A stretch of DNA of 64,000 bases from Mesoaciditoga lauensis cd-1655R = DSM 25116. GTDB taxonomy: Bacteria; Thermotogota; Thermotogae; Mesoaciditogales; Mesoaciditogaceae. The notes under the pieces were generated by a model. It was not told where the DNA came from. It made no database searches and worked only from the letters and a program-made list of their open reading frames with translations. This document shows positions 4,759 to 64,000 of the stretch, piece after piece. The translations under genes and the position numbers were made by a program. Numbering within the stretch: the stretch's first letter is position 1; every line of letters begins with the position of its first letter. The DNA lies in contig NZ_JQJI01000001.1 in NCBI RefSeq assembly GCF_000745455.1, forward strand, positions 1-64,000, given 5' to 3'.

Positions 4759-4833
4759 GACATAGTGAAAAGTGAGAAACTCACGTTGTGAGTGAAGGTA
4801 ACAGTTTTAGGGTTGGATGGAAAGGTAATATTC

Positions 4834-5203
4834 ATCGAAACACTTACCGGCACGATTCACTCTTTTATCTATCTTACGACTCAAAAAACGAGGCACGCTC
4901 AGACACTCATCCGTGAGTGCTTCGCTTTTTCAACACGTCCGTGTGTTTTCCAACCTCGTTTTTAGAGTCTTCAGATGGAGAGTTCATAAGTGCTGGCAAG
5001 CATTTCGATAAAAGAGAAGGGGAAGAAGAAAAAACTCTGTTATTTCGCATCTCGTATGGCGTCTTCATATGTTTTGACAGAAACTTCAAAAGGGAAAAGA
5101 GAAAAGCGAAGAAAAGCACTACATGGCCGTGGTAAATGACCGTAAGTGTTGAATTTATTGATGGGTATTTTATTTATTTAACATCGATGCACAGGATGAG
5201 ATG
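4834..5203 (+). repeat. Structured interspersed repeat, copy B (long form)
   Basis: Core 4834-5009 is closed by ATCGAAA/TTTCGAT, CTT/AAG and CCGGCAC/GTGCTGG. An inner long stem runs from GACTC to AAAACGAGG and pairs with CCTCGTTTT to GAGTC. Small hairpins are CACTCA/TGAGTG and AACAC/GTGTT. About 100 further bases (to about 5115) match only copy E, for example AAAAAACTCTGTT and TTCATATGTTTTGA. A CATCGATGCACAGG tail near 5180-5196 matches the tail of copy A. The rest of 4759-5287 holds no supported gene. Confidence 0.85.
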
Positions 5204-11913: not shown

Positions 11914-11983
11914 TAATAAGTGAATAATGAAAGTTTTCATTTAAACATATGTAACGCTAATAAGATGTGAAAGAACAAAATTA

Positions 11984-12060
11984 GGGGCACACGACGTGCC
12001 TCATTTTTTGAGTCGTAAGATGGATAAAAGAGCGAATCCGTTCCGACGGGGCTTCGAAAA
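11984..12060 (-). repeat. Structured interspersed repeat, copy C (inverted, partial)
   Basis: Read on the minus strand this shows CGAAGC, GGAACGGATTCGCTCTT, ATCCATCTTACGACTC and ATGAGGCACG, the left arms of copies A, B, D and E. It then jumps to a GTGTGCC-like remnant and loses similarity. The right arms needed to close the stems are missing, so it looks like a decayed or internally deleted copy. It lies in the 11914-12395 gap, which holds no supported gene. Confidence 0.75.
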
Positions 12061-12161
12061 AAAATGTCTTGACCGCTTGGAAAGCGGGTTTTAAATCAAA
12101 AAGTGTAGTCGAATGTGGCTCACATGTTCTCATAGGGAGATTAATGCTTCTTGTAATACCT

Positions 12162-12216
12162 TTCGCAATGTTCATGCGCAACATGAGTTTCTTATTCAAT
12201 GAGATGGCATTGCGAA
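12162..12216. repeat. Inverted repeat in the intergenic region
   Basis: TTCGCAATG (12162-12170) is exactly complementary to CATTGCGAA (12208-12216), with a 37-base loop. It lies 180 bases before the Spy-like gene. It could be a 5' regulatory structure or a remnant of a repeat; no T-run follows, so it is not a classical terminator. Confidence 0.4.
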
Positions 12217-16038: not shown

Positions 16039-16977
16039 TTAATCTGGAACTATAAAAGTGCCACTTTTTCCTTTTAAGGCTTCGCTCACTTTCTCCAAAG
16101 ATGTTATGACGCATTGACGATTCGTGGCTTTTACAAACGCTATGGCAGATTCTATTTTCGGTCCCATAGAACCAGCTGGAAAATGCCCCTCTTCCATCAA
16201 TTTGGAAGCTTGGGAAACCGTTAATTTATCCAAAGCTTTCTGATCTGGCTTGCCGAAATTCACGTAAACTTTTTCCACACCGGTGAGTATTACAAACATA
16301 TCGACATCCAACATTCTTGCTAACAGGGAAGATGCTCTATCTTTATCTATGACTGCTTCCACACCTTCGATCACTCCATCATCCTTTTGCATGACGGGAA
16401 TCCCGCCTCCACCAACGGTGACAGTTATAACTCCTTCTTCCATCAGTTCTTTGACAAGATCTTTTTCAACTACGTCCAAAGGTTGGGGAGAAGGCACAAC
16501 TCTTCTATATCCTCTGCCAGCATCTTCTTTTATCTTCCAACCTTTTTCACGTGCCAATTTTTCTGCCTCTTCCTGGGAATAAAAAGGCCCTACGGGTTTG
16601 GTTGGGTTTTTGAAAGCAGGATCTTCTGGATCAACGACAACTTGAGTGACCAATGCTGCACATTTTCTCTTCATTCCTTTTTTTGCCAGCTGATTTTCAA
16701 AAGCCTGGACTATCAGATATCCCAGCATTCCCTGAGTGTAGGCATCGTTTAGATCCAACGGAAGAGGTGGAAGTTTGTCTTTTGCAAGTTCTTGTTGAAC
16801 TAACAAATTTCCAACCTGTGGACCATTTCCATGGGTGATAACAACGTTCATTCCATCTAAAGCGTCTACAAGATAGGAAGCCGTCACCTGCAAATTCTTT
16901 CTCATTACCTCGGCGCTTGCCATTTCTTTTGGACCTTGAATTGCGTTTCCACCTATCGCTATCACGACGTTTTTCAT
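16039..16977 (-). CDS. arcC: Carbamate kinase
   Basis: A 312-residue amino-acid-kinase-fold enzyme. Family motifs: VVIAIGGNAI at the N-terminus, ITHGNGPQVGNLL, VGGGGIPVM, VIDKDRASSLLAR, ILTGVEKVYVNFGKP and GSMGPKIESAI. Carbamate kinases make ATP from carbamoyl phosphate, usually beside arginine deiminase or a transcarbamoylase; neither is here. Instead its ATG overlaps the stop of phosphate butyryltransferase (ATGA). The family call is firm, but the physiological substrate in this setting is open. Confidence 0.9.
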   Translation of the reverse strand: MKNVVIAIGGNAIQGPKEMASAEVMRKNLQVTASYLVDALDGMNVVITHGNGPQVGNLLVQQELAKDKLPPLPLDLNDAYTQGMLGYLIVQAFENQLAKKGMKRKCAALVTQVVVDPEDPAFKNPTKPVGPFYSQEEAEKLAREKGWKIKEDAGRGYRRVVPSPQPLDVVEKDLVKELMEEGVITVTVGGGGIPVMQKDDGVIEGVEAVIDKDRASSLLARMLDVDMFVILTGVEKVYVNFGKPDQKALDKLTVSQASKLMEEGHFPAGSMGPKIESAIAFVKATNRQCVITSLEKVSEALKGKSGTFIVPD

Positions 16978-57046: not shown

Positions 57047-57091
57047 AAAGATGATGTACTCATGTTGTGCGTGAACATTACAAAAGACAAT

Positions 57092-57326
57092 TTTTTTCGA
57101 AGTCCTGTCAGAACGGATTCGCTCTTCTTTCCATCTTACGATTCAAAATATGAGGCACGCTCAGACACTCGTCCATGAGTGCTTCGCTTTCTCGGCACGT
57201 CCTGTGCCTCTCAACCTCATATTTATGAATTTTCAGATGGAGAGCTCATATGTTCTAACAAGTACTTCGAGAGTGGGATTTAACCCCCTTTTTGAAATAC
57301 CTCGTAACATTGATGCACAATGTGAG
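57092..57326 (+). repeat. Structured interspersed repeat, copy D
   Basis: Closest to copy A. Outer stem CGAAGT (57098-57103) with ACTTCG, then a CAGAAC/GTTCT arm, CCATCT/AGATGG, a long ATATGAGG/CCTCATAT arm, and hairpins CACTC/GAGTG and GGCAC/GTGCC. The tail contains ACATTG/CAATGT (57308-57323), a hairpin of its own. It lies between bioY and the ABC operon; no gene is supported in 57047-57469. Confidence 0.88.
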
Positions 57327-63166: not shown

Positions 63167-63208
63167 GACGTTTTTGTTAAAAAAACATTTTAGTGCTTAA
63201 CGATATTT

Positions 63209-63478
63209 TTTCGAAACCCTGCCAGCACGGATTCACTCTTTTATCCATCTTACGACTCTAAAAACGAGGCACGCTCAGACACTCGTCTGTGAGTGCTTCG
63301 CTTTCTCAACACATCCGTGTGTTTCCCAACCTCGTTTTTAGAGTCTTCAGATGGCGAGTTCATAAGTGCTGGCAAGTGTTTCGAAAGGAAAAAGCGGGAG
63401 AAAAAACTCTGTTCTTTCGCATCTTGTGGTGTTTTCATATGTTTTGAAGAAAACTTCAAAGAAGAGCAAGAGAAAAAA
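63209..63478 (+). repeat. Structured interspersed repeat, copy E (long form)
   Basis: Best-preserved structure. Outer TTTCGAAA (63209-63216) pairs with TTTCGAAA (63379-63386); TGCCAGCAC pairs with GTGCTGGCA; CCATCT (63245-63250) with AGATGG (63349-63354); a 16-bp arm from GACTC (63254) to CGAGG (63269) with 63330-63345. Hairpins CACTC/GAGTG (63280-63295) and AACACA/TGTGTT (63308-63323). The 3' extension (63387-63478) matches copy B only. It separates the converging ABC operon and rqcH. Confidence 0.9.
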
Positions 63479-63525
63479 TCCACGGCAGTGCCCTTTGAGC
63501 ATTTTTAACTTCCATGACTCACTAT

Positions 63526-64000
63526 TTACTTTTCACCACATTGCGAGATTTCTTTGCAAGGCCTTACCCTGATAGTCTTAAATTTCTTGTATAAGACAAA
63601 TCCAGGGCGCGCTCCTTTAGGTTTGGATACGTTTTTTATTGTGGTGTAGTCTACATCCACCCAGGGCGATTCCTTATATCTGCAATGACCTGCGGCCAAA
63701 GATGCTGCCATTTTTATTACATCTTCAGGCACTTTTCTTCCGGCACTCACAACAACTACATGTGCACCGGGTACTTCCCTCGCATGAAACCAAAGATCAT
63801 CATGAGAGGCTGTTTTGGTAGTTATGCGATCATTCTGAATGTTGTTCTTACCGATCAAAATTTTGAACCCATTATATTCAACTTCCAAAAGGTTGGATTC
63901 TTTGACCTTTTTCATTCGTTTTTTGCTTTTTTTCACGAATCCTGTTACTACCAATTCATTTTCGATGTCGAAAAGCTCTTCTATCGAAGCAGCATTTTGA
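63526..64000 (-). CDS. rqcH: RqcH/NFACT (fibronectin-binding A-like) protein, C-terminal part
   Basis: The frame enters from beyond the right edge and ends at 63526, so the start is not seen. The visible 157 residues hold an NFACT-R (DUF814) domain: GFKILIGKNNIQNDRITTKT, DLWFHAREVPGAHVVV, AASLAAGHCRYKESPWVDVD, and a closing PKGARPGFVLYKKFKTIRV. RqcH acts in ribosome-associated quality control, adding alanine tails on stalled 50S subunits. Confidence 0.9.
   Translation of the reverse strand, partial: QNAASIEELFDIENELVVTGFVKKSKKRMKKVKESNLLEVEYNGFKILIGKNNIQNDRITTKTASHDDLWFHAREVPGAHVVVVSAGRKVPEDVIKMAASLAAGHCRYKESPWVDVDYTTIKNVSKPKGARPGFVLYKKFKTIRVRPCKEISQCGEK

Follow-up and report, generated by a model that had tools for sequence, protein, structure and literature searches.

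The structured repeat at positions 57059-57326 belongs to a family of high-copy MITEs which, as far as searched, is restricted to the Thermotogota. The mobility of the family is well supported; taking mobility and a selected core jointly, an IS4-mobilised MITE family carrying a previously undescribed structured core is probably the right description. The core is a nested palindrome of about 175 bp that occurs in no transposase gene seen and is carried on two sets of termini, distinguished here as types I and II. The window, i.e. the whole stretch of DNA analysed, covers 64 kb from the start of contig C1 in a 2.17-Mb genome (65 contigs) from the Mesoaciditogaceae (Thermotogota). Within it, the sequence-only reading had recognised five copies sharing one nested fold, which is true of copies A, B, D and E, all on the plus strand; the fifth, copy C, is a truncated and rearranged element on the minus strand (11928-12187, left terminus at 12187). 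Copies A and D are of type I, B and E of type II.

Copy D is a whole element of 268 bp on the plus strand (57059-57326). Its 3' end had been placed correctly, while the 5' boundary formerly given, 57092, cut off an inverted repeat. The left terminal inverted repeat (57059-57083, plus strand; CTCATGTTGTGCGTGAACATTACAA) has a single mismatch relative to the family left terminus and the right one (57302-57326, plus strand) ends in ...ACATTGATGCACAATGTGAG; the flanks, TGATGTA and TGATTAA, resemble a decayed 7-bp duplication. The structured domain (57097-57270, plus strand), which scores 200 bits with the covariance model, comprises an outer stem, a long inner stem and two hairpins. Hairpin 1 (57166-57181, plus strand) reads CACTC-GTCCAT-GAGTG, giving the minus-strand loop A-T-GGA-C; in this loop TCC is kept and the adjoining letters are variable. 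Hairpin 2 (57194-57208, plus strand) reads GGCAC-GTCCT-GTGCC, its minus strand being CAGGACG, a repeat of the CsrB type.

The other plus-strand copies are less complete or more elaborate. Copy A (1-220, structured part 1-165) has lost its 5' side at the contig start. Copy B (4780-5200, structured part 4835-5008) has degenerate termini at 4780-4804 and about 5180-5200, and an additional copy of part of its 3' half at 5052-5090. The structured domain of copy E (63211-63384) belongs to an inserted stretch within 63167-63550, part of the 3' half being repeated at 63422-63460; since its hairpin 1 loop is GTCTGT, the TCC has been lost. Every arm pair quoted in the sequence-only reading is present in the copies. 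RNA folding energies lie far under those of shuffled controls on both strands: copy D has -64 kcal/mol (z = -7.4) as plus strand and -74.8 (z = -8.7) as minus strand, and copy E has -75.6 (z = -9.5).

Mobility is borne out by the inverted repeats and 7-bp duplications of type I, by sites that are empty in relatives, and by transposases whose termini match those of the elements. Type I termini are inverted repeats of ~25 bp (CTCATGTTGTGCGTGAA...), and oriented copies begin with CTCATGTTGTGCGTGAACATTACG and end with AACATTGACGCACAATGTGAG, making the element longer than originally described; compared as inverted termini, CTCATGTTGTGCGTGAACATTACGA and the right end are identical at 19 of 25 positions. 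Perfect 7-bp direct repeats flank 17 of the 59 two-ended copies, exactly at CTCAT...TGTGAG, and in the same 59 copies other lengths or offsets yielded far fewer repeats, none comparable. The duplication holds for type I, is decayed in type II and is imperfect in copies B, D and E, the ends of type II (B, E) being older and degenerate. Insertion sites could be compared with the congener G001. Here the gene neighbours of copy B lie 55 bp apart rather than 495 bp, an empty site; those of copy E abut (0 bp versus 384) and are 11 bp apart in a further genome, G003; and the copy D site measures 246 bp, mostly coding, versus 547. Since these sites are empty in G001 (that of E also in G003), the insertions of B, D and E are lineage-specific. 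G001 does share further type II copies with this genome, their inner modules being rearranged. For type I, single-strand transposition of the IS200/IS605 or REP type is excluded by the inverted termini and the fixed 7-bp duplication; the marks left by transposition are those expected of an ordinary DDE transposase of IS4 type.

PF01609 transposases that share these outer termini are present both in this genome (L179, L185 and L189, at contig ends) and in relatives; in the clearest examples, some 22 bp separate the shared termini from the transposase reading frame. At their left ends, L177 and L184 agree with type I MITEs in 37 of 45 positions, and L184 does so at its right end in 22 of 27, while L175 agrees with a type II end at 29 of 34. 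The transposases contain a Y(2)R(3)E(6)K motif (YMSRWKIEVFFKSAK; PF01609 E = 1.2e-18) and match IS4 and IS701 models, yet fall under every NCBIfam IS4 and IS701 cut-off. The ISPepr1 subgroup of IS4 (De Palmenaer et al. 2008, PMC2266710) is characterised by PF01609, Y(2)R(3)E(6)K, 5'-CT ends, a length of 1500-1600 bp and a TSD of 7-8 bp, likenesses to the present system extending to 7-bp AT-rich duplications and an element of about 1.5-1.6 kb (1585 bp for L168). About half of the positions of the ISPepr1 terminal consensus YT-AA-YTT---A agree. The duplication length was measured on the MITEs. Judged on their sequences, the transposases thus appear to be IS4-type and closest to the ISPepr1 subgroup, with the terminal consensus fitting in part; the structured elements differ from ISPepr1 in being gene-less. 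The genome yielded no full-length transposon with an intact TSD; its transposase copies lie at contig ends, and at unpaired termini only truncated or chimaeric elements were met among its candidate autonomous copies. An IS256-type mobiliser is ruled out, the PF00872 transposases being without these termini. We infer that an ISPepr1-like DDE transposase of IS4 type would recognise the ~25-bp ends and move type I elements in trans, generating the 7-bp duplications. Another transposase-like reading frame (MPTTNIPQILSSILKPNMFSRKDQ...) adjoins the element in two genomes (L177:188-574 and the flank of C28:556).

Throughout the 2.17-Mb genome, a core pattern of 27 fixed letters, with three or fewer mismatches permitted, has 185 matches (91 forward, 94 reverse), and its reversed control none. 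The linkers had been called nearly invariant, which is partly an artefact of copy picking, because the 100 matches listed show no mismatch in the pattern. The structured domain is nevertheless still the less variable part in an unbiased sample of 454 kb picked irrespective of the core (contigs C1, C2 and most of C64; 40 copies): variability is 5.1% here versus 13.3% in the 5' module, 10.4% in the 3' spacer and 7.6% in the left terminus. Paired positions vary at 2.9 and 4.0% versus 6.5 and 6.1% for unpaired ones, and the loop TCC is nearly constant. Elements and their fragments cover 11.0 kb (2.4%) of this sample.

The arrangement of copies is itself varied. Several type II copies stand in tandem with a spacing of 210-330 bp, and type II cores form head-to-tail pairs about 290 bp apart, linked by a partial copy of the 3' half (in this genome, G000, at C2:18921/19213, C5:27394/27681, C18:26098/26392, C20:7217/7509 and C22:20590/20890). 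Many copies contain or adjoin a second repeat of unrelated sequence (CCCCCTTCGTCGGCTTCGCCGACACTTCCCCCACAAGCGGGGGCAGACTTCTTAT), which is often followed by GAGGAGGGTTCATT; this was seen at L049 (e.g. L049:3600-3690), L052, L046, L062 and L149. A third, short repeat (CTCATSTTGTGCGTSAAGTTTAAGAAATCAATTG...; C64:47254, C64:91048, L056:3591 and others) has the same outermost termini without the structured core, as if several kinds of MITE used the same transposases. Some copies in G004 (L155, L157, L158, L160) and G008 (L146, L148) have an additional hairpin module of 55-60 bp (CGCAGCTACCGCTTTGGTCGTAAAAGCG...) after hairpin 2 and before the inner 3' arm, which does not disrupt the nested fold, and a GTCATCCCGGACCTGATCCGGGATCTCATCC-type repeat breaks the outer 5' arm in L157, L158 and L162 of G004.

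The coordinated arm changes described from the window are real, occurring in 17 of 52 pairs across five genomes, but they become convincing only with copies from other genera: since the window holds only two subfamilies, its arm differences amount to few events. The figure derives from 30 copies, with the structure taken from one of these rows, and compares with 9.9 pairs in shuffles, which leave shared ancestry in (0 of 500 as high), and 2-4 in slid structures, which retain ancestry. Paired cells make up 95.1%, versus 31-49% in the slid controls, and the covariation score is 0.213 versus 0.116. The same pair may show different swaps in different lineages, as at columns 17/164 (C-G, A-T, G-C), and most arm changes are complete pair swaps with few G-U intermediates. 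Two alignments were excluded from these counts, A3 because of mixed minus-strand self-matches and the MAFFT inner-core alignment A2 because of shifted linkers. The counts from five genomes extend the coordination of the arms to further copies, although coordinated changes by themselves cannot separate RNA from DNA structure. The opinion that no named family fits also stands, with no Rfam 15 match at or above the gathering threshold in the whole window and none for copy D at E up to 10; this search rules out a known RNA family. A coding function was likewise rejected, no conserved frame being seen and the frames over the element looking incidental. The original interpretation, which offered either a structured RNA under conservation or a palindromic element mobilised in a structure-dependent way, is on the whole partly supported, as regards mobility for type I and as regards a conserved fold with coordinated changes through the counts across genera.

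Among named records, only MAGs labelled Mesoaciditoga sp. or Thermotogae bacterium match the core exactly. With the covariance model, additional copies appear in G006 and G008 and, at greater divergence, in family f7 (nine in G043, six in G053 and one each in G037, G015 and G059) and family f6 (seven in G024). The G024 copies lie at contig ends, as is usual for repeats, and contig ends also hold copies of G001, G004 and G008. It has no match in 287 genomes outside the phylum and no recognisable copy in four members of g2, a genus of the same family (G002, G005, G007, G009), even though the G007 assembly is almost closed and PF01609 transposases are numerous in it. Viral spread was considered and rejected, IMG/VR having no match to the core. 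Read directly, the diverged f6 and f7 copies have rewritten stems but still show both hairpins as well as the outer and inner stems; most retain the linkers GCTCAGA and GCTTCGC, and the loop TCC is also kept. The termini described above were not seen with the f6 and f7 cores. Survival of the architecture and loop letters across families while stems are rewritten, together with the two sets of ends, suggests selection on the fold itself. The core would then be kept by selection acting on a single-stranded fold with fixed loop letters, most likely that of the minus strand.

Two observations point to the minus strand, of which only the fold energies are consistent. Inner cores fold better on the minus strand in 18 of 18 variants (sum -507 versus -450 kcal/mol), these not being independent trials because the variants are related, and the internal loop below hairpin 1 is on this strand a tandem G-A pair in most variants. 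Stem mismatches read on the plus strand comprise 35 A.C and 15 G.U events in the unbiased set (p = 0.007), the asymmetry having p = 0.06 over all copies; singleton mismatches are even (24 G.U, 25 A.C) and polarised counts are small. An A.C excess on the plus strand implies G.U on the minus strand, so that a G.U excess, being weak and favouring the other strand, does not serve to argue for a plus-strand RNA. The minus-strand loops of the 18 diverged variants read A(N)GGA in 33 of 36 cases, the exceptions being CGA, and loop variation in this genome falls on the N positions flanking GGA. This is the motif of CsrA sites. Hairpin 2 reads, on the minus strand, CACACGGAUGUG in type II and CAGGACG in type I; CsrB repeats present CAGGA(U/A/C)G in loops (PMC7652899).

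A canonical CsrA is encoded at C64:5203-5358, and a putative FliW-like frame, so named from our own reading of the sequence, ends just upstream of csrA. CsrA is found in 78 of 103 Thermotogota and in 11 of 12 element-bearing genomes, G008 having the element with csrA not detected; because CsrA is so common in the phylum, this co-occurrence adds little. In G015, only 6.5 kb separate csrA from the sole core recognised there (C25:10134-10282 and 16698-16859), a closeness that is probably due to chance since it is not repeated in G037, G043, G053 or G059.

The two types differ in their relation to genes, which were called by a simple script. Type I orientation is random relative to genes (16/16 at tandem sites). 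The type II plus strand runs along neighbouring genes (26 versus 2 at tandem sites, p = 3e-6) and the upstream gene is co-oriented 37 to 8, counts somewhat inflated by tandem copies. In G043 the bias is reversed, most copies lying opposite to their neighbours. Type II copies usually start shortly after a stop codon, with the core typically about 100 bp behind. At two sites common to G001, the stretch after the stop codon and the 5' half of the core are nearly identical, compared with about 80% for the coding flanks, which, for these few sites, suggests constraint on the non-coding stretch. As the type II plus strand runs with its neighbours, a minus-strand RNA with a function would have to be transcribed from a promoter of its own. 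None was convincingly recognised in the elements, nor do these contain a strong intrinsic terminator, the terminators of upstream genes often already preceding the element. Orientation of neighbouring type II copies is correlated along contigs. Replication strand was entertained as the cause of the type II bias and is inseparable from gene direction.

The main alternative to a role in the host is that the core, as DNA or RNA structure, aids the spread of the element. A DNA hairpin or cruciform, or a transcript, would recruit the transposase or a host factor, and if only copies with an intact fold spread, conservation would reflect copying rather than a host job. Such selection at copying would leave private stem mutations without the strand preference that shared variants show, as is found, and sits well with the random orientation of young type I copies with TSD and with the presence of the core on two sets of termini. 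Yet core-less short repeats have the same termini, the core persists in families where such termini were not seen, and we know of no need for internal palindromes among IS4-type DDE transposases; we regard this explanation as possible, if somewhat doubtful. Template switching within a long imperfect palindrome might also rewrite both arms with no selection on the fold. Long palindromes are known templates for arm-to-arm correction, and the mostly complete pair swaps with few G-U intermediates are what this process would leave. It should, however, have removed mismatches and bulges, whereas the outer-stem irregularity of type I and the internal loops are stable, and the letters best kept across families are those of loops and linkers, untouched by such correction. 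Template switching thus seems an unlikely source of the pattern.

Turning to roles in the host, our leading guess, put forward tentatively and with low expectation, is that the core is a small structured RNA whose two A(N)GGA hairpins would be bound by CsrA or a similar protein, the element thereby titrating CsrA or putting nearby transcripts under its control. As a minus-strand CsrA/RsmA-binding RNA it might act as mobile decoy or portable site in hosts otherwise using FliW. All 33 TCC loops of the 18 variants have A(N)GGA as their minus-strand reading, the loop letters varying in this genome lie at N, hairpin 2 of both types matches the CsrB repeat, the minus strand folds better throughout and the host encodes a canonical CsrA. 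Weighing against it, the type II minus strand is antisense to its neighbours, GGA is short, one element-bearing genome (G008) lacks a detected csrA and, to our knowledge, there are no CsrA decoy RNAs from CsrA-FliW organisms; judged from sequence, the proposal is improbable. The more specific picture, of a MITE with a two-hairpin CsrA-binding RNA cargo in about 185 copies, offering about 370 sites in hosts thought to rely on FliW only, is more improbable still. The orientation data bring in a plus-strand possibility, that type II copies are domesticated parts of 3' UTRs acting as terminators or mRNA stabilisers. The agreement of 26 of 28 tandem-site copies with gene direction, the co-oriented upstream genes, the position of the core behind the stop codon and the near-identical non-coding stretches at the two shared sites would be explained. 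Against this stand the absence of B and E from G001, the want of a strong intrinsic terminator in elements often preceded by that of the upstream gene, and the correlation of type II orientation along contigs, and we doubt that it accounts for the core. The preferred reading remains the IS4-mobilised family with its selected structured core.

Modular dispersed repeats with multi-stem predicted RNA and several length variants are familiar from the BOX elements of Streptococcus pneumoniae. By description, the present family shares these three features with BOX, and differs in its phylum and in modules that carry IS4-type ends. Bacterial folding MITEs include ERIC/IRU, NEMIS/Correia and RPE, of which ERIC and NEMIS were proposed to act on transcripts (PMC2229807). 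These are likewise short, intergenic and high-copy, with inverted termini and long stem-loops; by description, the elements reported here differ in the 7-bp rather than TA duplication, in the nested two-hairpin core with fixed loops and in coordinated changes across genera and families. The resemblance to CsrB/CsrC and RsmX/Y/Z lies in the loop sequence A(N)GGA or CAGGA(U/A/C)G, here on the minus strand. Those RNAs are the products of single-copy sRNA genes having many sites and their own promoters, whereas the present repeats are mobile, number about 185, carry two sites apiece and have no Rfam match.

Folding MITEs as such are already known; what is new is a phylum-wide core riding two sets of transposon ends. 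An old question thereby becomes testable, namely whether folded bacterial repeats are mobile regulators, or parasites that owe their spread to their shape. Should the A(N)GGA reading be true, a transposon family would be tied to a global translation regulator, and the finding would bear on whether RNA decoys and FliW jointly control CsrA, a matter called undetermined in a 2020 review (PMC7652899).
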